Positions 37,356 to 51,340 of a DNA stretch of 64,000 nucleotides are shown one piece after another. The stretch covers positions 186,001 to 250,000 of the forward strand of contig NZ_JAAGWF010000002.1 in NCBI RefSeq assembly GCF_010686765.1. Reading direction: 5' to 3'. The translations under genes and the position numbers were made by a program. This DNA comes from Geodermatophilus sabuli. Its GTDB lineage: Bacteria; Actinomycetota; Actinomycetes; Mycobacteriales; Geodermatophilaceae. How positions within the stretch are numbered: position 1 is the stretch's first letter; each line of letters opens with the position of its first letter. The notes under the pieces were generated by a model. The model was not told the origin of the DNA. It ran no database searches and saw nothing but the letters and a program-made list of their open reading frames with translations.

Positions 37356-38138
37356 TCAGGTGGCAGCGGAGTCGCTGGTGCGCGCGGTCACCGCGGCGAG
37401 CAGGGCGCGGGCGACGTCCTCGATCGGCCGGTCGGACCGGCGGGCGGTGGCAGCAAGCGTGGCGAAGGCGTCCTGGCGGTCGGCCGCGCCCTTGGCCAGG
37501 AGCACCCCGATCGCCTGGGCGACGGCGTCCCGGCTGGTGAGCGCGTCGGTGAGCTGACGGCTGAGCCGGCGGGCCTCCTGCAGGCTCTGGCTGTTGGCGA
37601 GCAGGATGGCGGCCTGCGCCGCGAGCAGGCGCATGACGTGCTCGTCGTGGGGGCCGTAGTTCACCGGGCGCTCGCAGTAGACCTTCATGGCGCCGATCGA
37701 CTCGTCGGCCGCCAGCAGCGGTGCGCTGAGCACCGAGCGCACGCCCAGCCGGCTGGCCGCCTCGTTCCACCGGGGCCAGCGGGCATCGGTCGTGGTGTCG
37801 TCGATGCGCACCAGTTCCCGGGTCCGCCAGGCGGTCAGGCACGGGCCCTCGTCGAGCTCGTACTGCAGGGCGTCGGCCTGCTCGGCCGCCTGGTTGGAGG
37901 CGGCCCGGGAGCGCTTGCCGTGCTCGTCCACGATGGTGACCGCCGACCCGAGCGTGCCCGCGGTGGCGGTCGCGGCGAGGGCGGTGACCAGTTCGAGCGC
38001 GGTGTCCACGGTCTCCCGGGACAGGACGAGCCCGGCCATCCGGCTCAACGCCCAGGCCAGCTCCGCCGACGGTGTGGAGGTGAGCTCGCCGGAGGCGGCC
38101 GGTGCCGGGTTCTCGGCGGGGGTGGTGGGGTCGGTCAT
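37356..38138 (-). CDS. GAF-ANTAR domain protein
   Basis: A 260-residue cytosolic regulator. The GAF domain spans about 45-180 and the C-terminal ANTAR domain about 190-245, with Leu-Thr-Ser-Arg-Asp-Ala-Val-Ala-Gln-Ala-Ile-Gly-Val-Leu-Leu and Ala-Phe-Ala-Thr-Leu at the usual positions. ANTAR proteins bind paired RNA hairpins to stop transcription termination. The input here is probably a small ligand or redox state sensed by GAF. AGGACCG precedes the ATG. It lies 84 bases after a second GAF-ANTAR gene with different GAF sequence. Confidence 0.9.
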   Translation of the reverse strand: MTDPTTPAENPAPAASGELTSTPSAELAWALSRMAGLVLSRETVDTALELVTALAATATAGTLGSAVTIVDEHGKRSRAASNQAAEQADALQYELDEGPCLTAWRTRELVRIDDTTTDARWPRWNEAASRLGVRSVLSAPLLAADESIGAMKVYCERPVNYGPHDEHVMRLLAAQAAILLANSQSLQEARRLSRQLTDALTSRDAVAQAIGVLLAKGAADRQDAFATLAATARRSDRPIEDVARALLAAVTARTSDSAAT

Positions 38139-38222: not shown

Positions 38223-38942
38223 TCAGAGGTCCAGTTCTCCGGTGAGCACCAGGTGCTCGGCCAGGTCGCGCACCTTGCGATTGGTGTGCATGGACACGCC
38301 GGCCAGCAGCCGGAAGGCCTCGTCGACGGTCACCTTGTACCGCTCCATCACGATGCCCTTCGCCTGTTCGATGGCGGCCCGGGACTCCATCGCCAACCGC
38401 AGGTTCTCGGCCTGGTCGCGGGCGTCCTGGAGTGCGTCGACGTTGGCCAGCGCGACCGCGGCGTAGGCGGCGAACTCGGCCGCGGCGCGACGGTGCTCGT
38501 CGGTGAAGGCACCGGTCACCGGCGAGTACACGTTCAGCGCCGCCGCGAACTGCACGGCGGGTACGGGCGCGGCCAGCGAACTCAGGGCACCGCGCTCGAC
38601 GAAGGTCTCCATGTAGTCGGGCCACCGGCTCTCCGAGCGGCCGTCGGTGATCTCGGTGAACTCGCCGCCGACGGCGGCGTCCATGCACGGGCCGTGACCC
38701 TGCTCGTACTGCGTCTCGTCGAGGTGCCGCGCCAGTTCCCCGGTGGAGGCCGCGGTCATCGCCTGCTGGTCGCGCATCACCGTGATCGAGGCCTCGCTGT
38801 TCTCCGGCATCACGTGCGTGACCAGGTCGGCGATGCGCTGCAGCACCGACTGGGTGTTCTCCTCGGCGAGCAGCAGGCCGGCCAGCTCGCCCAGCGCCTC
38901 CCGGATGCCCGGCGTGCCGGAGGCGCCCGCGGAGCCGGTCAT
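38223..38942 (-). CDS. GAF-ANTAR domain protein
   Basis: A 239-residue relative of the downstream gene. GAF at about 20-165 (Gln-Gly-His-Gly-Pro-Cys-Met-Asp-Ala-Ala) and ANTAR at about 175-235, with Ala-Met-Glu-Ser-Arg-Ala-Ala-Ile-Glu-Gln-Ala-Lys-Gly-Ile-Val-Met, the classic ANTAR signature, then Asp-Glu-Ala-Phe-Arg-Leu-Leu. The ATG at 38942 has GGAGG nine bases upstream; the longer frame to 39014 has none. It is the first gene of a three-gene minus-strand unit. Confidence 0.92.
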   Translation of the reverse strand: MTGSAGASGTPGIREALGELAGLLLAEENTQSVLQRIADLVTHVMPENSEASITVMRDQQAMTAASTGELARHLDETQYEQGHGPCMDAAVGGEFTEITDGRSESRWPDYMETFVERGALSSLAAPVPAVQFAAALNVYSPVTGAFTDEHRRAAAEFAAYAAVALANVDALQDARDQAENLRLAMESRAAIEQAKGIVMERYKVTVDEAFRLLAGVSMHTNRKVRDLAEHLVLTGELDL

Positions 38943-39222: not shown

Positions 39223-39945
39223 GTGGCCATCGCCCCGACTTCTGCGAACACGGCACGCTGCAACGCCGTCCTCGCCGGCCTCGACGAGGACGCCCTCGCC
39301 CCGCTGCTGCCGGATCTGCACGAGGTACCGCTCCCCCTGGGGCGGGTGCTGCACGAGCCCGGGGCACCGATCCAGGCCGTGTTCTTCCCGCTCGTCGGCG
39401 TCGTCTCCGTCGTGGCCGACCTGGACGCCGACCAGGTCGTGGAGACCGCCACCATCGGCCGCGAGAGCGTGGTCGGCCTCTCGGTGTTCCTCGGCGCCGA
39501 CGCCCCGACCGAACGCTCCCTGGTCCAGGTGGCCGGTCGGGCGCTGGCGATGGGCGTCGACCAGTTCCGGGAGCAGATCGCCGAGGTCGACGGCCCGCTG
39601 ACAGCCATGCTCCAGCGGTCGGCCCAGGCCCTCTTCACCCAGGTGAGCCGCAACGCCGCCTGCAACCGGGTGCACACCGTGCGCCAGCGAGCCGCCCGGT
39701 GGCTGCTCATGACGGCCGACCGCATGGACAGCTCTCGCTTCGACCTCACCCAGCACTTCCTCGCCCAGATGCTTGCGGTGCGCCGCACGTCGGTCAGCGA
39801 GGTGGCCCAGTCCCTGGCCGAGGACGGCTGCATCACCTACACCCGCGGGTCCATCGGCATCACCGACCGGCCACGCCTGCAGTCGCACGCCTGCGACTGC
39901 TACGAGGCGATCCGGCGAGCCACCGGGGACGCACTGGCGCACTGA
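39223..39945 (+). CDS. Crp/Fnr family transcriptional regulator
   Basis: A 240-residue regulator. A cyclic-nucleotide-binding-like beta-barrel (about 20-125) contains Val-Leu-His-Glu-Pro-Gly-Ala-Pro-Ile and Phe-Phe-Pro-Leu-Val-Gly-Val-Val-Ser-Val-Val, but not the Arg-Ser cAMP-binding motif of true CRP, so another ligand or none is likely. A winged helix follows (about 150-225) with Phe-Leu-Ala-Gln-Met-Leu-Ala-Val-Arg-Arg-Thr-Ser-Val-Ser-Glu-Val. Two Cys near the C-terminus (Ala-Cys-Asp-Cys) are notable. The GTG follows GGAG. It is divergent from the GAF-ANTAR unit across 280 bases. Confidence 0.88.
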   Translation: MAIAPTSANTARCNAVLAGLDEDALAPLLPDLHEVPLPLGRVLHEPGAPIQAVFFPLVGVVSVVADLDADQVVETATIGRESVVGLSVFLGADAPTERSLVQVAGRALAMGVDQFREQIAEVDGPLTAMLQRSAQALFTQVSRNAACNRVHTVRQRAARWLLMTADRMDSSRFDLTQHFLAQMLAVRRTSVSEVAQSLAEDGCITYTRGSIGITDRPRLQSHACDCYEAIRRATGDALAH

Positions 39946-41353: not shown

Positions 41354-42631
41354 GTGCGACGGAGGCTCCCGCTCGCGCCCATCTCGACGGCGCGGCAGCT
41401 ACCGAGGCCCGCGGAACTGCGCCGGCTGGTGCAGTTCCGGCGACCCGAGCTCGGCGCGACGACCCGCCGGCTGAGCCGCGCGCTCACCATCGGTGACCTG
41501 CGGCGGGCCGCCGCCCGCACCACACCGAGGGCGGTCTTCGACTACGTCGACGGGGCCGCGGAGGAGGAGATCACCGCGGCCCGCAACGTCGCGGCGTACC
41601 GCAGGGTCACCTTCGCGCCGGACGCGCTCGCCTCGGTGGCCGACCCGGACACCGGGGTGGACCTGCTGGGGCGGCGCATCCGCCTCCCGCTGGTCCTCGC
41701 GCCCACCGGCTACACGCGGATGATGCACCACCACGGCGAGGCCGCCGTCGCGCGCGTGGCCGAGCACGTCGGCATCCCGTACTGCCTCTCCACGGTCGGG
41801 TCGACCTCGATCGGGGACGTCCGCGCCGCCGCGCCCGGTGCGGACCTGTGGTTCCAGCTGTTCTTCACCGCCGACGAACGACTCAACGAGACCCTCGTGG
41901 CCCAGGCCGAGGACGCCGGGTACTCCACCCTCCTGGTCACCGTGGACACGGCGGTGTCCGGCATGCGCCTGCGGGACGTCGCCAACGGGCTCACCATCCC
42001 GCCGGCGCTCACCGCCCGGACCGTCCTGGACATGTCGCGCCGACCCGGCTGGCTGTTCCACAAGCTGACCACCGCCGGCCTGACGTTCGCCGTCCTCGGC
42101 AGCGCCGTCGAGGGCAGTCCCACGCCCGGCGAGGTGGCGAGCCTCATGTTCGACCCGGGCACGGACCTCGCGGCGCTGGACTGGTTGCGCCGGCGCTGGC
42201 CGCGGACGCTGCTGGTGAAGGGCGTCACGACGCCGGACTCGGCCCGCCGGATCATGGAGCGGGGCGCGGACGGGATCGTGGTCTCCAACCACGGCGGCCG
42301 CCAGCTGGACCGCTCCGCGGCGACGCTGGACGTCCTGCCCGCCATCCGGGCGGCCGTCGGGAACCGCGCGACCGTGTTGATCGACGGCGGGGTCCTGCAC
42401 GGCCAGGACGTCGTCGCCGCCCGTGCGCTCGGCGCCGACGCGGCGATGATCGGCCGGGCCTACCTCTACGGGCTCATGGCCGGTGGCCAGGACGGCGTCC
42501 TGCGGGCCTGCGAGATCCTCGCCGAGGAGTACCAGCGCTGCATGCAGCTGCTCGGCGTCCGGCGCAGTGCGGACCTCGGCCCCCGCCACGTCGCGTCCGC
42601 CCCCGCCGGGACCAGCGGGACGGCGGTCTGA
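41354..42631 (+). CDS. FMN-dependent alpha-hydroxyacid oxidase (LldD-like)
   Basis: A 425-residue TIM-barrel flavoenzyme. Its N-terminal half carries the FMN site (Leu-Ala-Pro-Thr-Gly-Tyr-Thr-Arg-Met) and the C-terminal half Ser-Asn-His-Gly-Gly-Arg-Gln-Leu-Asp, with the catalytic His and substrate-binding Arg. It would oxidise an L-2-hydroxyacid such as lactate, glycolate or a sugar-derived acid to the 2-oxoacid. An N-terminal extension of about 40 residues is basic. GAGGGG is found before the GTG. It lies 93 bases before the galactonate-type operon on the same strand and may be part of the same pathway. Confidence 0.9.
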   Translation: MRRRLPLAPISTARQLPRPAELRRLVQFRRPELGATTRRLSRALTIGDLRRAAARTTPRAVFDYVDGAAEEEITAARNVAAYRRVTFAPDALASVADPDTGVDLLGRRIRLPLVLAPTGYTRMMHHHGEAAVARVAEHVGIPYCLSTVGSTSIGDVRAAAPGADLWFQLFFTADERLNETLVAQAEDAGYSTLLVTVDTAVSGMRLRDVANGLTIPPALTARTVLDMSRRPGWLFHKLTTAGLTFAVLGSAVEGSPTPGEVASLMFDPGTDLAALDWLRRRWPRTLLVKGVTTPDSARRIMERGADGIVVSNHGGRQLDRSAATLDVLPAIRAAVGNRATVLIDGGVLHGQDVVAARALGADAAMIGRAYLYGLMAGGQDGVLRACEILAEEYQRCMQLLGVRRSADLGPRHVASAPAGTSGTAV

Positions 42632-42724: not shown

Positions 42725-44170
42725 ATGGCCACCACCCGTGAATCCGGAGGACGCCGGGCCTCGGTCACCGACCGGTTCCCGACCAAGCACCTGCCCGCGC
42801 CGTCGGTGCGCGACATGCCCGAGCCGCCGGCGCGGTTCCGGCACGTCATCGGCCCGGGGATCATCGCGGCCGGCGTCGGCATGGCCAGCGGCGAGTTCAT
42901 CCTGTACCCCTACATCGCCTCCCAGGTGGGGCTGGTCTTCGTGTGGGCCGCCTTCGTCGGGCTGGCCACCCAGTACTTCCTCAACATGGAGATCGAGCGC
43001 TACACGCTCGCGACCGGGGAGACGGCGCTCACCGGCTTCAGCCGGTACTGGCGGCACTGGGGCCTGGTCTTCGCGATCCTGGCGTACTTCGCCAACATCT
43101 GGCCGGGATGGGCGACCAGCTCGGCGACGCTGGTCACCTACCTGGTCGGCGGCGACGTGGTGCCGATCGCGATCGGCATGCTGCTGCTGATCGGCGTCAC
43201 GCTGACGATGGCCCCGGTGGTGTACCAGGCGCTCGAGAAGATCGAGATGTTCAAGGTCGCCGCCGTCCTGGTGCTGATCATCGTCGCGTCGATCTTCGCG
43301 ATCGGCGCCTCGGACTGGGCCGACACCTCGCAGATCGTCACCGAGGCCGGCCTGCCGGCCGAGGAGCTCGGCTTCGCCCTCTTGCTGGGTGCCCTCGCCT
43401 TCGCCGGCGCCGGCGGCGGGCAGAACCTGTGCCAGAGCAACTGGATCCGGGACAAGCGCTTCGGCATGGGCGCCTACGTGCCGCGGATCGTCAGCCCGGT
43501 CACCGGCAACCCCGAGGCGGCGCCGTCGACCGGGTTCGCGTTCGAGCCGACCCCGGAGAACCTGGGGCGCTGGCGGCGGTGGTGGAAGTTCGCCAACGTC
43601 GAGCAGCTGACCACCTTCGTCGCGATCAGCTTCCTGACCATCCTGTTCACCTCGCTGCTGGCCTACGCCACCGTCTTCGGTGAGGAGGGGCTGGCCAGCG
43701 ACATCTCGTTCCTCCAGGTCGAGGGCGACGCGCTCAACGACGCGGTCGGCGGCTGGTTCGGCACCTTCTTCTGGGTCATCGGGGCGATCTCGCTGTTCGC
43801 CGCGGCGCTGGGCATCGTGGACTACACCAGCCGGCTGGGGGCCGACGTCCTCAAGACGGCGTACCTGAAGGGCGCGAACGAGAGCAAGATCTACTTCGCC
43901 CTGGTCTGGGGTCTGGTCCTCATCGGGTGCGTCGTCCTGCTCTCCGGGCTCGACCAGCCGCTGGTGCTGCTGGTGATCGCCGCGGTGACCGGCGGACTGA
44001 TGATGTTCATCTACTCGGCGCTGCTCCTGGTCCTCAACCGGCGCACCCTGCCGCCGGAGATCCGCCCGGGCATGGTGCGGGTCGCGGCCTTGGTCTGGTC
44101 GTTCCTGCTCTTCGGGTTCCTCTCGGTGCTCACCTTCGACGAGCAGCTGCGCCGACTCTTCGGCGGGTGA
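42725..44170 (+). CDS. Nramp-fold transporter lacking the metal-binding motifs
   Basis: A 481-residue membrane protein with about 11 helices and clear Nramp-family shape. In helix 1 the canonical Asp-Pro-Gly-Asn becomes Ala-Ser-Gly-Glu (within Gly-Met-Ala-Ser-Gly-Glu-Phe near residue 55). In helix 6 the Met-Pro-His-Asn is Gly-Gly-Gln-Asn. The residues that bind Mn or Fe in true Nramp proteins are therefore absent. Its downstream partner starts in a GTGA overlap with its stop, and the following genes encode sugar-acid enzymes. The context suggests it carries an organic acid such as galactonate; this is inference. Annotation as a divalent-metal transporter would probably mislead. Confidence 0.8.
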   Translation: MATTRESGGRRASVTDRFPTKHLPAPSVRDMPEPPARFRHVIGPGIIAAGVGMASGEFILYPYIASQVGLVFVWAAFVGLATQYFLNMEIERYTLATGETALTGFSRYWRHWGLVFAILAYFANIWPGWATSSATLVTYLVGGDVVPIAIGMLLLIGVTLTMAPVVYQALEKIEMFKVAAVLVLIIVASIFAIGASDWADTSQIVTEAGLPAEELGFALLLGALAFAGAGGGQNLCQSNWIRDKRFGMGAYVPRIVSPVTGNPEAAPSTGFAFEPTPENLGRWRRWWKFANVEQLTTFVAISFLTILFTSLLAYATVFGEEGLASDISFLQVEGDALNDAVGGWFGTFFWVIGAISLFAAALGIVDYTSRLGADVLKTAYLKGANESKIYFALVWGLVLIGCVVLLSGLDQPLVLLVIAAVTGGLMMFIYSALLLVLNRRTLPPEIRPGMVRVAALVWSFLLFGFLSVLTFDEQLRRLFGG

Positions 44171-45135
44171 GCGTGAGCCCGGCCATCACCGACGCGCTCC
44201 GGGTGGTCACCGCCGGCGAGACCATGGTGCTCGTCGTCCCGACGTCGCCCGGCCGGCTGCGGCACGCCACCAGCGTGCGGCTGTCCGTCGGCGGCGCCGA
44301 GAGCAACGTCGCCATCGGCCTGGCCCGGCTCGGCGTCCCGGCGAGCTGGGTGAGCGCTCTGGGGGACGACGAACCGGGGGAGCTGGTGCTGCACCGGATC
44401 CGGGCCGAGGGCGTCGACACCGGCGCGGTCCGCCGGGTGCCCGACCGGCCCACGGGGCTGTACCTGCGCGAGGAGGTCGCCGGGGCGCTGCGGGTCTACT
44501 ACCACCGCCGCGGCTCGGCCGCCGCCACGCTGGCGCCGGGCGCGTTCGACCCCTCGGTGCTGGCCGGGGCCGGCTTCCTGCACCTGACCGGCATCACCGC
44601 AGCGCTGTCGCCCGAGTGCGCCGAGTTCGTCCCCTGGGCGGCGCGGACGGCCGCGGAGGCCGGGGTCCGCGTCAGCTACGACGTGAACTACCGCAGCCGG
44701 CTCTGGGACCCGGCGGCCGCGCGGGCGGCCACCGAGGCGGTGCTGCCGCACGTCGACGTGCTCCTCGTCGGCGACGAGGAGGCGTCGGCCCTGTGGGGAT
44801 GGGACGAGGACACCTGCCTCGAGCGGTTCCCGGACGCCGGACCGGGGGAGGTCGTCGTCAAGCTCGGTGCCCGCGGCTGTGCCGCGGTGATCGACGGCGA
44901 TCGCCTGACCGCCGCCGGCTTCCCGGTCCGCCAGGTCGACCCGATCGGTGCCGGCGACGCCTTCGCGGCCGGCTACCTCGCGGCGACCCTGTGGGGTTCC
45001 GCGCCGGAGGAGCGGCTGCGGACCGCCAACGCCATGGGCGCGTTCTGCGTCCAGGGCCTCGGTGACTACGAGGGGCTGCCGAGCCGACGCGAGCTCACGG
45101 CCTTCCTCGACCAGACCGTCGACCTCGGGAGGTGA
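44167..45135 (+). CDS. PfkB-family sugar kinase, probable 2-keto-3-deoxy acid kinase
   Basis: A 322-residue ribokinase-fold protein. Motifs: Val-Gly-Gly-Ala-Glu-Ser-Asn-Val-Ala near residue 40 for substrate binding, and the PfkB signature Asp-Pro-Ile-Gly-Ala-Gly-Asp-Ala-Phe-Ala-Ala-Gly near 262 with the catalytic Asp. Gene context (DgoD, aldolase) indicates phosphorylation of 2-keto-3-deoxygalactonate or -gluconate. E. coli DgoK belongs to another fold, so this would be a non-orthologous replacement. The GTG overlaps the transporter stop (GTGA); a second in-frame GTG six bases on is an alternative start. Confidence 0.87.
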   Translation: MSVSPAITDALRVVTAGETMVLVVPTSPGRLRHATSVRLSVGGAESNVAIGLARLGVPASWVSALGDDEPGELVLHRIRAEGVDTGAVRRVPDRPTGLYLREEVAGALRVYYHRRGSAAATLAPGAFDPSVLAGAGFLHLTGITAALSPECAEFVPWAARTAAEAGVRVSYDVNYRSRLWDPAAARAATEAVLPHVDVLLVGDEEASALWGWDEDTCLERFPDAGPGEVVVKLGARGCAAVIDGDRLTAAGFPVRQVDPIGAGDAFAAGYLAATLWGSAPEERLRTANAMGAFCVQGLGDYEGLPSRRELTAFLDQTVDLGR

Positions 45136-45140
45136 GCTGC

Positions 45141-46028
45141 GTGTCCGGACCCGGAGACGTGCTGCAGGGGGTGTACGTCGCGAACGTGACGCCGTTCCGC
45201 GACGACGACCGGTTCAGCGTCGACGTCGACGCCTACGTCGCCCACGTGGAGTGGCTCGCCGGGCACGGCGTGACCGGCGTGATCCCGTTCGGCACCAACG
45301 GCGAGGGGCCGTCGGTCGCCGCGCACGAGAAGCGGGCGGTGCTCGAGGCGCTGCTGCCGCGGGTCGGGGACCTGCAGGTCGTGCCCACGGTGGCCGAGGG
45401 CAACCTGCCCGACACGCTCGACCTGCTGGCGTACCTCGACGACCTGCCGGTCCGGGCGGTCATGGTCCTGCCCCCGTACTACTTCACGCCGGTGGAGGCC
45501 GACGGGCTGCGGTCGTTCTACGAGCGCGTCCTGGCGGCCACCCGCCATCCGGTCGTGATGTACCACATCCCGAAGTACGCGGTGCCGCTGCCGCCGGAGC
45601 TGGTGACGGCCCTGCCGGTGTGGGGCGTCAAGGACTCCGGGGGAGAGGCGGGCTACGCCCAGACCGTGCGCGACGCGGGCAAGGGGGTGCTCGTCGGCAC
45701 CGAGGACGACCTGCCCACCCGGCTGCTCACCGCGGACGGCTCGATCTCGGCGCTGGCCAACATCGTCCCCGAGCAGGTGGTGGCGCTCTACGCGCACGTG
45801 CGCGCCGGACGGACCGATCAGGCCGCGCGCCTGTCCGGCCACCTGCAGGAGGTGCGGGCCATGACCAAGCAGCACACCTCGGCCGGCGTCCTCAAGCGGG
45901 TCGCCGAGCAGCGGCACGGGCACCCGATGGGGACGGTGCGCCCACCGCTGCTGCCGGTTCCGGCCTCGTTCGACGCCGCCGGGGCGGCCGAGCGCGCCGC
46001 CGCCTCGCCGGTGCCGGCCGGCGGCTGA
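45141..46028 (+). CDS. DHDPS/N-acetylneuraminate lyase family aldolase
   Basis: A class I pyruvate-type aldolase of about 295 residues. The pyruvate-binding Gly-Thr-Asn-Gly-Glu-Gly near residue 52, the Tyr in Met-Tyr-His-Ile-Pro-Lys-Tyr near 137 and the Schiff-base Lys in Trp-Gly-Val-Lys-Asp-Ser-Gly-Gly near 163 are all in place. Context suggests cleavage of a 2-keto-3-deoxy sugar acid, or its phosphate, into pyruvate and glyceraldehyde (3-phosphate). I start at the GTG at 45141, because GGGAGG is well spaced for it; the GTG at 45132 that overlaps the kinase stop is too close to that site. Confidence 0.87.
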   Translation: MSGPGDVLQGVYVANVTPFRDDDRFSVDVDAYVAHVEWLAGHGVTGVIPFGTNGEGPSVAAHEKRAVLEALLPRVGDLQVVPTVAEGNLPDTLDLLAYLDDLPVRAVMVLPPYYFTPVEADGLRSFYERVLAATRHPVVMYHIPKYAVPLPPELVTALPVWGVKDSGGEAGYAQTVRDAGKGVLVGTEDDLPTRLLTADGSISALANIVPEQVVALYAHVRAGRTDQAARLSGHLQEVRAMTKQHTSAGVLKRVAEQRHGHPMGTVRPPLLPVPASFDAAGAAERAAASPVPAGG

Positions 46029-46037
46029 GGAGCGCCG

Positions 46038-46991
46038 GTGCGGGTGCTGGTGACCGACGCGGAGTACGCCTCGCTCGACGTCGAGGCCGCGATCCTCGGC
46101 GCAGCCGGCCACGAGCTGGTCCGCGGGCGGTGCCGGACGCCGGAGGACGTCATCGCGGCCGCGGGGGACGCCGAGGCGCTGGTGGTCCAGTACGCGCCGA
46201 TCACCGCCGCGGTGCTCGACGCGCTGCCCGGCGTCGGGCTGGTCAGCCGGTACGGCGTCGGCCTGGACGTCGTCGACCTCGACGCCGCCCGCGCGCGCGG
46301 GGTCTGGGTGTCCAACGTGCCCGACTACGGCACCACCGAGGTCGCGCTGCACGCGGTCGCGATGCTGCTGGCGCTGCTGCGCAACCTGCCCGGGCACGAC
46401 CGCGAGGTGCGCGCGGGCCGGTGGGACTACTCCCTCGGCGGGCCGCTGCGCCGTCCGGAGGAGCTGACCCTGGGCGTGGTGGGGCTCGGCCGGATCGGCC
46501 GGATGGTGGTGGAGCGGGCCGCGCCGTGGTTCGGGGCGTGCGTCGGGTACGACCCGCACCTGCCGGAGGAGCTGTGGCCCGACGGCGTCGTCCGGGCGCC
46601 GCTGGCGGAGCTGTTCGCCCGCAGCTCGGCGGTGACGCTGCACCTGCCGCTGACCGACGCGACCCGGGGGCTGGTCGGCGCGCGGCTGCTGGGCGCGATG
46701 CCGCCGGGCTCCCACCTGGTCAACACCGCCCGCGGTGGCCTCGTCGACACCGACGCGGTGCTCGACGCCCTCGCCTCGGGCCGGCTCGCCGGCGTCGCGC
46801 TCGACGTGCTCCCCGAGGAGCCGCCGCCGGCGGGGCACCCGCTGCTGACCCACCCGCGCGCGCTCGTCACGCCGCACGTCGCGTGGTACTCCGAGGCGGC
46901 CGAGGCGGAGCTGCGGCGCAAGGCCGCGCAGAACGTCGTCGACTGGGCACGGACCGGCCGGCCGACGTACGCCGTCGTCGAGGGGCGCTGA
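46038..46991 (+). CDS. D-2-hydroxyacid dehydrogenase
   Basis: A 317-residue NAD(P)-dependent dehydrogenase. Rossmann motif Gly-Leu-Gly-Arg-Ile-Gly near 155, catalytic Arg in Asn-Thr-Ala-Arg-Gly-Gly near 232, Glu in Leu-Pro-Glu-Glu-Pro and His in Thr-Pro-His-Val-Ala-Trp-Tyr-Ser-Glu. The His-Val-Ala-Trp-Tyr-Ser pattern resembles the CtBP/phosphoglycerate dehydrogenase branch. In this operon it could reduce hydroxypyruvate, tartronate semialdehyde or a 2-oxo sugar acid. It starts nine bases after the aldolase gene. Substrate is not determined. Confidence 0.87.
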   Translation: MRVLVTDAEYASLDVEAAILGAAGHELVRGRCRTPEDVIAAAGDAEALVVQYAPITAAVLDALPGVGLVSRYGVGLDVVDLDAARARGVWVSNVPDYGTTEVALHAVAMLLALLRNLPGHDREVRAGRWDYSLGGPLRRPEELTLGVVGLGRIGRMVVERAAPWFGACVGYDPHLPEELWPDGVVRAPLAELFARSSAVTLHLPLTDATRGLVGARLLGAMPPGSHLVNTARGGLVDTDAVLDALASGRLAGVALDVLPEEPPPAGHPLLTHPRALVTPHVAWYSEAAEAELRRKAAQNVVDWARTGRPTYAVVEGR

Positions 46992-48391: not shown

Positions 48392-49333
48392 ATGAAGCTG
48401 CTGCTGCCCGACTCGCTGCCCCTGGCGCCGGACCTGCCCGAGGGGGTCGTCGCGGTCACCTACGCCGCCTCCGCGCCGGTCCCGGACGAGCACCTCGACG
48501 CCGAGGCACTGGTGGTGTGGGGCAGCTCCGCTGCCGACCTGGCCGCCGTCGCCGGCCGGATGCCGCGGCTGCGGTGGGTCCAGACCCTGGCGGCCGGGCC
48601 GGACGCGGTGCTCGCCGCGGGCTTCCCCGAGCACGTCGTCGTCACCGGCGGGGCGGGCCTGCACAGCCGCACGGTCACCGAGCACACCCTGGCCCTGACC
48701 CTGGCGCTGGTGCGCCGGCTGCCCGCCTCCGCCGGTGCGCAGGCCGAGCACCGCTGGGCCCGTGAGCTCGGTGGCCTCCAGCCGCTGCACCCCGACGGGC
48801 CGGTGACCACCCTGCTGGACGCCCGGGTGCTGATCTGGGGGTTCGGCGCCATCGGGCAGACGCTGGCGCCGCTGCTGCGAGGGCTGGGCGCCGACGTCCG
48901 GGGCGTGGCGCGCACCCCGGGGGAGCGGGCCGGCTGCACCGTCGTCGGCGAGGACGACCTCGAGGCCGAGCTGGGTCGGACCGACGTGCTGGTCATGATC
49001 CTGCCGTCGACGCCGGCCACCACGCGGGCGCTGGACGCCGCCCGCCTGGCGGCGCTCCCGACGCACGCCTACGTGGTCAACGTCGGCCGTGGCTCCACCG
49101 TCGACGAACCGGCGCTCGTGTCGGCCCTGGCCGAGGGCCGTCTGGCCGGTGCGGCGCTGGACGTGACGGACACCGAACCGCTCCCGCCGGGGTCGCCGCT
49201 CTGGGACGCCCCGGACCTCGTCCTCACGCCGCACGCCGCCGGCGGCCGGCCGGTGGGCGCCGACGAGCTCGTCTCGGCCAACCTCGCCGGCCTGCTCGCC
49301 GGGCGGGAGCTGCGCAACGTCGTGGACCGCTGA
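48392..49333 (+). CDS. D-2-hydroxyacid dehydrogenase
   Basis: A 313-residue NAD(P)-dependent dehydrogenase unrelated in detail to its neighbour at 46038. Motifs: Gly-Phe-Gly-Ala-Ile-Gly near 149, Asn-Val-Gly-Arg-Gly-Ser near 230, Asp-Thr-Glu-Pro-Leu-Pro, and Thr-Pro-His-Ala-Ala-Gly-Gly. The last pattern places it nearer the glyoxylate/hydroxypyruvate reductase group. GGAGGG precedes the ATG. It is divergent from dgoD across 247 bases and probably shares its control region. It may reduce hydroxypyruvate or glyoxylate formed from the sugar acid. Confidence 0.87.
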   Translation: MKLLLPDSLPLAPDLPEGVVAVTYAASAPVPDEHLDAEALVVWGSSAADLAAVAGRMPRLRWVQTLAAGPDAVLAAGFPEHVVVTGGAGLHSRTVTEHTLALTLALVRRLPASAGAQAEHRWARELGGLQPLHPDGPVTTLLDARVLIWGFGAIGQTLAPLLRGLGADVRGVARTPGERAGCTVVGEDDLEAELGRTDVLVMILPSTPATTRALDAARLAALPTHAYVVNVGRGSTVDEPALVSALAEGRLAGAALDVTDTEPLPPGSPLWDAPDLVLTPHAAGGRPVGADELVSANLAGLLAGRELRNVVDR

Positions 49334-49410: not shown

Positions 49411-50280
49411 ATGGCATCGCCGGAGGTGCCGGCCGGCGCGGGCGGCACGGCGTTCGTCCTCGGGGGAGGGGGCGTCCTCGGGGCCGCCGAGGTGGGGATG
49501 CTGCAGGCCCTCTTCGAGCACGGCGTCCAGCCCGACCTGGTCGTGGGCACGTCGGTGGGCGCGATCAACGGCGCGCTCGTCGCCGCGGACCCGACCTCGG
49601 GCGTGGTCTCCCGGCTGCGCGGGGTGTGGGAGGAACTGGCCTCGGCGCAGGTGTTCGCCGGGTCGGTGTTCGCTCGGATGGGCACCCTGGCGCGGACCCG
49701 CACCCACCTGCACCCGCGCGAGCCACTGCGCGAGCTGCTCGAGGCCCACCTGCCGGTGCGGACCTTCGCCGAGCTGCGCGTGCCGTTCCAGTGCGTCGCG
49801 GCCAGCATCGAGCGGGCCGCCGAGCACTGGTTCAGCGACGGGTCCCTGGTCGACGCGGTGCTCGCCTCCTGCGCCGTCCCCGGGCTCCTGCCGGCCGTCG
49901 AGCTCGACGGCGAGCACTACCTGGACGGCGGGCTGGTGCACAGCATCCCGGTCGGCCGCGCGGTCGCCCTCGGCGCCGGCACGATCTACGTGCTGCACGT
50001 CGGGCGGATCGACCGCCCGTTGCGCCCGCCCACCCGGCCGTGGGAGGTCGCGCTGGTCGCCTTCGAGATCGCCCGCCGGCACCGGTTCGCCGCGGACCTC
50101 GCCGCCCTCCCGCCCGGGGTCACGGTGCACGTGCTGCCCTCGGGCGAGCCGGATCCGCCGGCGACCGGGAACCTGCGCTACCGCGACTTCTCCGCCGTCC
50201 CCGCCCGGATCGACCGGGCCCACGCCGCGGCCGGCGGCCACCTGGACGCGATCGGCGCACGCGGGGACGGGGGAGCCTGA
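49411..50280 (+). CDS. Patatin-like phospholipase
   Basis: A 289-residue cytoplasmic or membrane-associated lipase. The oxyanion loop is Gly-Gly-Gly-Gly-Val-Leu-Gly-Ala, the nucleophile elbow Gly-Thr-Ser-Val-Gly has Ser near residue 48, and the catalytic Asp is in Asp-Gly-Gly near 171. The Ser-Asp dyad is complete. It would hydrolyse acyl chains from phospholipids or neutral lipids. It is coupled to an acyltransferase-like gene one base downstream, which suggests a deacylation/reacylation pair remodelling membrane lipids. Confidence 0.92.
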   Translation: MASPEVPAGAGGTAFVLGGGGVLGAAEVGMLQALFEHGVQPDLVVGTSVGAINGALVAADPTSGVVSRLRGVWEELASAQVFAGSVFARMGTLARTRTHLHPREPLRELLEAHLPVRTFAELRVPFQCVAASIERAAEHWFSDGSLVDAVLASCAVPGLLPAVELDGEHYLDGGLVHSIPVGRAVALGAGTIYVLHVGRIDRPLRPPTRPWEVALVAFEIARRHRFAADLAALPPGVTVHVLPSGEPDPPATGNLRYRDFSAVPARIDRAHAAAGGHLDAIGARGDGGA

Positions 50281-50281
50281 G

Positions 50282-51340
50282 GTGCTGCCTCCCCGCCGCG
50301 TGCGCCGGGTCACCGGCCCGCTGCTCATCGGTGCGCTGGCGGCCGGGGTGGTCCTGCTGCCCGTCCTCGTGGTGGTGGCGGTGATCGCCTCGGTGTTCCT
50401 GCCGGGGCGCTGGCGGGCGCTGCGGCTGCTGTGCTTCGCGTTCGCGTACCTCGCGATGGAGGTCGCCGGGCTGGCGGTGGCCGGGGTGCTGTGGGTGCTC
50501 GGCGGCTTCGGTCGCCGGTTGCACTCCCGCGGCTCACGCGCCGCCCACTACACCGTGCTGCGGCTGCTGCTCGACGTGCTGATGCGGGTGGCGCAGCGGC
50601 TGTTCGCACTGCGGCTGGTCACCGACGGCGCGTCCTGGTCGCCGCTGGACGACGGCGTGCCGGGCTCGACGAACGCCATGGTGGTGCTGTCCCGCCACGC
50701 CGGCCCGGGTGACTCCTTCCTGCTCGTGCACACGCTGATGAACCGCGACCACCTCCGCCAGCCGCGGATCGTGCTCAGGGACCTGCTGCAGCTGGACCCG
50801 CTGCTCGACGTCTACCTCAACCGGCTGCCCAACCACTTCGTCTCGGCCGACCCGGCGGCGGGGCAGAGCTCCGAGGAGGCGATCGCGGACCTGGCCCGCG
50901 ACCTGGGCGAGGAGGACGCGTTGCTGATCTTCCCCGAGGGCGCCAACTTCACCCCGCGGCGCCGGACCCGGGCGATCCAGCGGCTGCGCGAGCGCGGGCT
51001 GCTGTCCGCCGTGCGCCGGGCCGAGGCGATGCGCAACGTGCTGCCACCCCGGCCGGCCGGGGTCACCGCGGCGCTGCGCGCCGCACCGCACGCCGACGTG
51101 GTCTTCGTCGCGCACACGGGGCTGGAGCACCTCAGCACGGTGCGGGACCTGTGGCGGGGCCTGCCGATGGACAAGACCCTGCACCTGCGCTGGTGGTTCA
51201 TCCCCGCTGCGGACGTGCCGCGGGACGAGGCGGAGCTGACCGACTGGCTCTACCGGTGGTGGGAGACGATCGACGACTGGATCACCACCACGTCGGCCGC
51301 GGCGACGCAGCTGCAGGGTGCCACCGGTACGCCCGGGTGA
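50282..51340 (+). CDS. Membrane-bound lysophospholipid/1-acylglycerol-phosphate acyltransferase-like protein
   Basis: A 352-residue protein. Two or three N-terminal helices (about 10-85) precede the PlsC-type domain. The catalytic His-x4-Asp is in Ser-Arg-His-Ala-Gly-Pro-Gly-Asp-Ser near 140, and the acyl-acceptor motif is Phe-Pro-Glu-Gly-Ala-Asn near 220, with Ala where Thr is usual. It would acylate a lysophospholipid or a similar alcohol. The GTG comes one base after the patatin stop, so translation is coupled. Confidence 0.87.
   Translation: MLPPRRVRRVTGPLLIGALAAGVVLLPVLVVVAVIASVFLPGRWRALRLLCFAFAYLAMEVAGLAVAGVLWVLGGFGRRLHSRGSRAAHYTVLRLLLDVLMRVAQRLFALRLVTDGASWSPLDDGVPGSTNAMVVLSRHAGPGDSFLLVHTLMNRDHLRQPRIVLRDLLQLDPLLDVYLNRLPNHFVSADPAAGQSSEEAIADLARDLGEEDALLIFPEGANFTPRRRTRAIQRLRERGLLSAVRRAEAMRNVLPPRPAGVTAALRAAPHADVVFVAHTGLEHLSTVRDLWRGLPMDKTLHLRWWFIPAADVPRDEAELTDWLYRWWETIDDWITTTSAAATQLQGATGTPG

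Follow-up and report, generated by a model that had tools for sequence, protein, structure and literature searches.

An Nramp-related transporter gene devoid of metal-ligand motifs in a hydroxyacid and sugar-acid operon of Geodermatophilus sabuli: a candidate organic-acid importer

What does a transporter with the predicted Nramp (SLC11) fold carry when the residues that hold the metal are gone and its gene lies among enzymes of hydroxyacid and sugar-acid catabolism? The question is raised by one gene of Geodermatophilus sabuli in the window, i.e., the whole stretch of 64,000 nucleotides that was analyzed (assembly GCF_010686765.1, contig NZ_JAAGWF010000002.1, positions 186,001 to 250,000, forward strand). 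Published statements given here and below are taken from excerpts of the cited papers. Nramp-related proteins lacking both motif sets are a recognized group that is diverse and paraphyletic (PMC12873925), and the specificity of most of them is called unknown, with metal assumed to be likely (PMC13060092). The protein studied here resembles this non-canonical SLC11 group (NF037982) in its Nramp fold and in lacking the DPGN and MPH motifs and the helix 3/9 proton path; its own branch, with [AGS][ST]GE at helix 1 and GAGG at helix 6 (branch I), differs by a context that points to organic acids. Searches of the open-licence literature listed neither a substrate for this branch nor any paper on Nramp-type carriers of sugar acids or hydroxyacids. 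Judging from sequence and context, we consider it rather probable that the protein is a secondary transporter of Nramp fold whose metal site was converted to a site for small organic anions, and that it imports a 2-hydroxycarboxylate or sugar acid. The candidates range from lactate-, glycerate- or tetronate-like acids up to aldonates.

Kinship with Nramps was evaluated using profiles and a predicted structure. The protein scored 543 bits against NF037982 (cut-off 50), and the closest Protein Data Bank (PDB) matches of its AlphaFold model were Nramps, which agrees with the Nramp shape recognized in an earlier note on this DNA. With DraNramp/MntH and other canonical Nramps it has in common the predicted fold (TM-score 0.80 by target length) and the LATG motif after helix 2, at 10-17% identity in structural alignments. 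In the model, helix 1 (44-48|56-68, the first half at low confidence) and helix 6 (217-225|232-243) are broken at the motifs discussed below. PF01566 was unlisted for the protein even with E values up to 10, and the sole Pfam match over its cut-off was AA_permease_2 (28.1 bits). Compared directly as profiles, branch I and canonical Nramps matched weakly (40% and 19%); a chain through branch V connected branch I to branch V (99.3%, E 2.6e-20) and branch V to canonical Nramps (98.9%, E 1.1e-17). Neither the protein nor the branch profile, used as query, matched any PDB sequence; in two further PDB sequence searches, bearing on a grouping with PxpT or YcsG (discussed below), 9a52 was not among the matches listed. 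It is NF037982, the intermediate branches and the fold that support Nramp kinship. Together, the modeled fold with its broken helices 1 and 6 and the sequence homology place the protein in the Nramp superfamily.

The motifs were compared with those of the two canonical Nramps (DPGN/MPH) encoded in the same genome. Both carry DPGN at helix 1, where the transporter has ASGE, exactly as the earlier note had read it. At helix 6, the note was right that the Met and His are absent, but its register was off: GGG is the counterpart of MPH, shifted one to two places ahead of the note's GGQN, and the Q and N come next. The helix 3 acidic residues and helix 9 arginines of the proton path are also gone in this alignment, although clade B Nramps themselves are without most of these residues. 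In a motif alignment of 92 rows (90 non-canonical plus the two canonical Nramps of this genome), helix 1 of the non-canonical rows read ASGE in 65, SSGE in 14, GSGE in nine and ATGE in two; the helix 6 stretch was GGQN in 81 of the 92. Invariant in a 21-row alignment that included Rubrobacteraceae and haloarchaea were S55-G56-E57, the LATGE stretch, G228-A-G-G231, N234, R242 and K244. The transporter thus lacks the DPGN and MPH motifs and the helix 3/9 residues by which canonical SLC11 proteins are told. Nor does it have the helix 1 Asp that EleNRMT and other Nramp-related Mg transporters (NRMTs) retain (DxxG-TxxA/T), its helix 1 reading AxxE. The view that the protein is a canonical Nramp or an NRMT whose site is merely concealed was rejected on the residues of helices 1, 3, 6 and 9. 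The substrate site would consist of Glu57, which replaces the DPGN Asn, and the Gly-rich break of helix 6, and transport would proceed by LeuT-type rocking of the broken helices 1 and 6. We infer this site as well as the substrate class, the direction of import and any ion coupling. As a separate observation, the genome encodes a third PF01566 protein (G000:C99:22117-23088, L006), which is non-canonical by its score of 80.8 bits.

The first gene of the putative operon is the LldD-type gene, which the earlier note had overlooked; it lies upstream of the transporter gene on the same strand, at a spacing of 93 bases (Table 1). The transporter TGA (44168-44170) and the GTG start of the PfkB-family kinase gene share a GTGA overlap, a second GTGA overlap forms the PfkB/aldolase junction, and 9 bases separate the aldolase gene from the 2-hydroxyacid dehydrogenase gene (46038-46991). 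The dgoD gene is convergent with the operon. The coordinates thus bear out the gene order, the overlap and the facing dgoD that the note had described. Scores of the operon enzymes identify them firmly at the family level only. Specifically, the LldD-type protein scored 274 bits against PRK11197 L-lactate dehydrogenase (cut-off 376); the nearest named families of the kinase were 2-keto-3-deoxy-gluconate/galactonate kinases, all under cut-off (NF041332, 196.6 bits against 440); and the aldolase scored 124 bits for dapA and 113.8 bits for NF040954, both under cut-off. DgoD, by its curated cut-off, can be assigned at the function level. Of the three enzymes that together make a dgo locus, DgoD exceeded its cut-off, and the candidates for the 2-keto-3-deoxy-galactonate kinase and the aldolase remained under all named cut-offs.

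Table 1. Features of the transporter operon and its surroundings, in positions of the window
Feature	Coordinates	Strand	Basis
LldD-type FMN (flavin mononucleotide)-dependent 2-hydroxyacid dehydrogenase	about 41354..42631	+	PF01070 8.5e-122; GTG start picked among candidates
Nramp-related transporter of 481 aa, metal ligands absent	42725..44170	+	NF037982, AlphaFold model
Helix 1 motif ASGE, residues 54-57, replacing DPGN	42884..42895	+	sequence alignment
Helix 6 motif GAGGGQN, residues 228-234; canonical MPH aligns inside	43406..43426	+	alignment
PfkB-family kinase	44167..45135	+	PF00294 3.8e-53
DHDPS-family aldolase, KD(P)G-aldolase-like	45132..46028	+	PF00701 9.6e-31
D-isomer-specific 2-hydroxyacid dehydrogenase	46038..46991	+	PF02826 (2-Hacid_dh_C) 1.9e-51
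DgoD-type galactonate dehydratase	46996 to about 48138	-	NF010624 585 bits, cut-off 311; start from codon-bias gene caller
Second 2-hydroxyacid dehydrogenase	48392..49333	+	PF02826 1.3e-44; start from codon-bias gene caller

In an 82-row tree, the window grouped with eight Geodermatophilaceae and Actinoplanes rows (support 100/92). The LldD gene lies upstream of the transporter gene at all nine loci of this subclade, with the order of the two kept. Within 6.5 kb, PfkB and DHDPS genes were each found at 8/9 loci, a 2-hydroxyacid dehydrogenase gene at 6/9, a KDPG aldolase gene at 4/9 and dgoD at 2/9. A homologue of the second 2-hydroxyacid dehydrogenase of Table 1 is within the cluster at two loci (L008 and L049). 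Geodermatophilus obscurus DSM 43162 (L009) also carries this cluster. Based on LldD in 9/9 and dgoD in 2/9 of these loci, the constant partner of the transporter is LldD, and galactonate is one possibility. D-galactonate as a settled substrate was accordingly rejected as too specific and, as the specific substrate, is not established.

The earlier note had set the protein in the place of the galactonate permease DgoT, a D-galactonate:H+ symporter of the major facilitator superfamily (MFS), with which it would have a position in a galactonate locus in common but neither fold nor superfamily. Part of this proposal stood: the window's catabolic operon contains no other transporter gene, and the genome gave 37 matches to TIGR00893 (DgoT-type), none over cut-off (the best at 78 bits against 395), and no GntP. 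This agrees with an acid-importer role and is not proof, as many MFS proteins are present. With dgoD rare in the subclade and LldD constant, D-galactonate in particular was not supported. In the window, the imported acid would be dehydrated (by DgoD, were it D-galactonate), phosphorylated by the PfkB kinase and cleaved by the aldolase; LldD and the 2-hydroxyacid dehydrogenase would act on 2-hydroxy and 2-oxo acids.

Hydroxyacid and acid-sugar genes, among them hydroxyacid dehydrogenase genes not homologous to one another, also lie beside branch-I genes in Rubrobacteraceae and haloarchaea. In Rubrobacter indicoceani and family f16, LutABC, an OtnK-type kinase, PdxA, LarA-type genes or UxaA surround the branch-I gene. 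Family f16 is taken to be that of R. indicoceani (Rubrobacteraceae), as its genome G076 holds the R. indicoceani plasmid; this is the same 169,605-base record, and L137 thus repeats L089. A FAD/Fe-S dehydrogenase gene was present in 4/5 of the haloarchaeal plasmid regions viewed. At L135, no transporter was found among nine other genes scanned by Pfam, and at L138 further membrane proteins nearby resemble, by eye only, subunits of TRAP transporters. Such surroundings in three lineages far from one another support an organic-acid Nramp, which is a plausible idea. The R. indicoceani genome also contains a second copy of the branch-I gene (G076:C1:153198-154600), broken by a TGA and probably a pseudogene.

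The frequency of such neighbors was compared with controls using a panel that detects only its 22 included families. A match was found in 10/16 newly fetched branch-I loci, 1/20 canonical-Nramp loci and 2/20 random stretches, five of the latter 20 being <6 kb; the densities per 10 kb were 1.88, 0.04 and 0.16, respectively. The Fisher p values for the branch-I loci, 2.7e-4 against canonical and 1.4e-3 against random, overstate independence because 14 of the 16 loci come from one family (f16), and are hence related, and because the panel includes genes first seen in R. indicoceani, a member of that family. Six dehydrogenase probes had matches within 5 kb at 9/9 subclade loci, 6/21 in Rubrobacteraceae, 3/4 in haloarchaea, 0/4 other branch-I loci of the phylum and 2/9 in branch III, as compared to 0/13 in branches V and VI, 0/20 canonical and 2/20 random. 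The absence of matches in branches V and VI indicates that the hydroxyacid theme separates the branches. Gene calls at unannotated loci were made with a codon-bias script and have approximate starts, and Pfam was used to name selected neighboring genes only.

Several observations weigh against an organic-acid importer, beginning with the composition of the sample just described and the scarcity of dgoD. For the 72 close relatives that fall outside the subclade, a panel gene was present within 3.5 kb at 7 loci and in the outer 5-8.5 kb flank at 5, which is no excess, and the dehydrogenase probes had a match in 2/72. Within 6.5 kb, 18/80 close relatives had a panel match. A CorA-type Mg transporter gene lies directly upstream at L021. 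An L-lactate permease gene was found in 3/5 of the haloarchaeal regions viewed, so that another lactate carrier is present there. Further, an added acidic residue is by itself no argument for an anion. An operon association that is universal for the branch was ruled out by the 18/80 and the 7-versus-5 counts. The tabulation of neighbors that the earlier note had proposed gave a divided result: LldD throughout the subclade and the near absence of panel genes beside canonical Nramps supported an organic-acid role, but most close relatives lie outside such loci.

Neighborhoods varied even among relatives 60-75% identical. This variation favors the view that the transporter gene is merely co-transcribed and contributes nothing to the pathway, a view that we nonetheless find very improbable: the gene shares its GTGA overlap with that of the kinase, and the LldD-transporter order is kept in 9/9 subclade loci. 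Isolated associations were KDPG aldolase with PfkB (two Pseudonocardia loci), an FGGY kinase (a Propionibacteriaceae metagenome-assembled genome), IclR with Ldh_2 (Kibdelosporangium) and SMP-30 (two Kribbella). Sphingomonad relatives adjoin amidohydrolases. In Amaricoccus (L022:8980-10416), the transporter gene lies, by eye, between apparent substrate-binding and permease genes of an ATP-binding cassette (ABC) sugar system.

Another point against an organic-acid importer comes from known systems. Overproduction of YcsG, whose operon is MntR-regulated, raised cell Mn (PMC10448178), and cells in which MumT, of a urea operon, was deleted contained less Mn and grew less well on urea (PMC5050338); both are Nramp-type proteins in catabolic operons that are reported to import Mn. 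The protein could likewise import a divalent metal (Mn, Mg) through a non-canonical site and feed the operon's metal-dependent enzymes, the enolase-superfamily dehydratase and the kinase. We judge this unlikely, although several points speak for it: EleNRMT, a Mg carrier, has an altered site (PMC8806188), homologues of this kind are treated by others as likely metal transporters (PMC13060092), the L021 gene adjoins CorA, and the helix 1 Glu could still contact a cation. However, the helix 1 Asp (DxxG) that NRMTs keep (PMC8806188) is found nowhere in branch I, which has also lost the Met, the His and the proton-path residues, and the genome already encodes two canonical Nramps. Among the loci with named neighbors, for a limited number of Pfam-scanned genes, CorA at L021 was the only metal gene next to a branch-I transporter; the iron ABC gene at L087 is some 6 kb distant.

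A precedent for an organic substrate is provided by PxpT of Corynebacterium glutamicum, an NRAMP-family protein that is needed for growth on 5-oxoproline and is complemented by its own gene; metal transport was not excluded by its authors (PMC13274462). The earlier note's remark that an organic-acid Nramp branch would be new has therefore been outdated since May 2026. PxpT and YcsG of Bacillus subtilis resemble the present case in that an NRAMP-family gene stands with catabolic enzyme genes. They differ in adjoining 5-oxoprolinase genes, whereas branch I forms a sequence branch of its own and has hydroxyacid genes as neighbors; a Pfam/NCBIfam scan of the window's operon genes revealed no 5-oxoprolinase. 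The PxpT precedent favors an organic-substrate transporter of another kind, for an amino acid, a 5-oxoproline-like lactam or a peptide product, for which the operon link of the subclade would be secondary. The amidohydrolases of the sphingomonad relatives, the location of most close relatives outside hydroxyacid loci and the AA_permease_2 match point the same way. We consider this quite unlikely, as the hydroxyacid and acid-sugar theme recurs in three distant lineages and the dehydrogenase probes found nothing in the branch V/VI loci.

In branch VI (helix 1 GPGT, helix 6 VPYN-type), the transporter gene adjoins hydantoinase/oxoprolinase A and B genes at L190 and an oxoprolinase A gene at L191 and at L161, where it is the second Nramp gene of the locus. 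A D-glutamate cyclase gene is beside it at L191 and L188, and biotin carboxylase and carboxyltransferase genes are present at L188. These neighbors fit the YcsG/PxpT group, which, judged by neighbor genes, would belong in branch VI.

Returning to the organic-acid importer, a wider generalization may hold, which we rate slightly short of probable: that most Nramp-related proteins devoid of metal ligands carry something other than metal, with whole branches carrying small organic anions. The [AGS][ST]GE / GAGG branch would carry 2-hydroxycarboxylates and sugar acids, the oxoprolinase/hydantoinase-linked branch 5-oxoproline-like lactams, and the LutABC- or PdxA-linked branches similar acids; Glu at the helix 1 Asn position and a Gly-rich helix 6 would mark the switch from ion to organic substrate. 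In automatic annotation through NF037982, an equivalog, these proteins receive the name of divalent metal transporter, and many database names would be wrong if the branch carries organic acids. Work on Nramps in which non-canonical homologues count as probable metal carriers would then have a mixed set as its basis, and the superfamily would be a natural experiment showing how a fold of the LeuT type moves between bare metal ions and organic anions as substrates. The literature being divided between 5-oxoproline (PxpT) and Mn (YcsG, MumT), a branch with a clear operon offers a clean test.

Other branches showed further associations. In a branch with SIGSGEW / ASGLN motifs, LutCBA is directly adjacent at L155, and LutA/Dld-like genes are present at L150 and L214. 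At L149 and L212, in two genomes, genes for PdxA, a DHDPS-family protein and an aldo/keto reductase come after that of another GSGE-type protein (GQGGFGN at L149). A branch V Nramp-related gene (L163:5219-6820) adjoins a gamma-glutamyltranspeptidase gene. In a set of annotated plasmid loci (L100, L098, L103), Nramp-related genes adjoin mannonate dehydratase and DHDPS-family genes (Halocatena), OtnK-type kinase, PdxA and aldolase genes (Streptomyces albus), or CoA-transferase and thiolase genes (Mesobacillus).

Finally, a patatin-like phospholipase gene and then an acyltransferase gene lie downstream in the window (49411-51340, +). A patatin gene is also directly 3' of the transporter gene at two Aureimonas loci (L039:10518-11537 and L080), perhaps by chance. 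On the other side of the operon, a GAF-ANTAR regulator pair (37356-38138 and 38223-38942, -) adjoins a Crp-type regulator (39223-39945, +).

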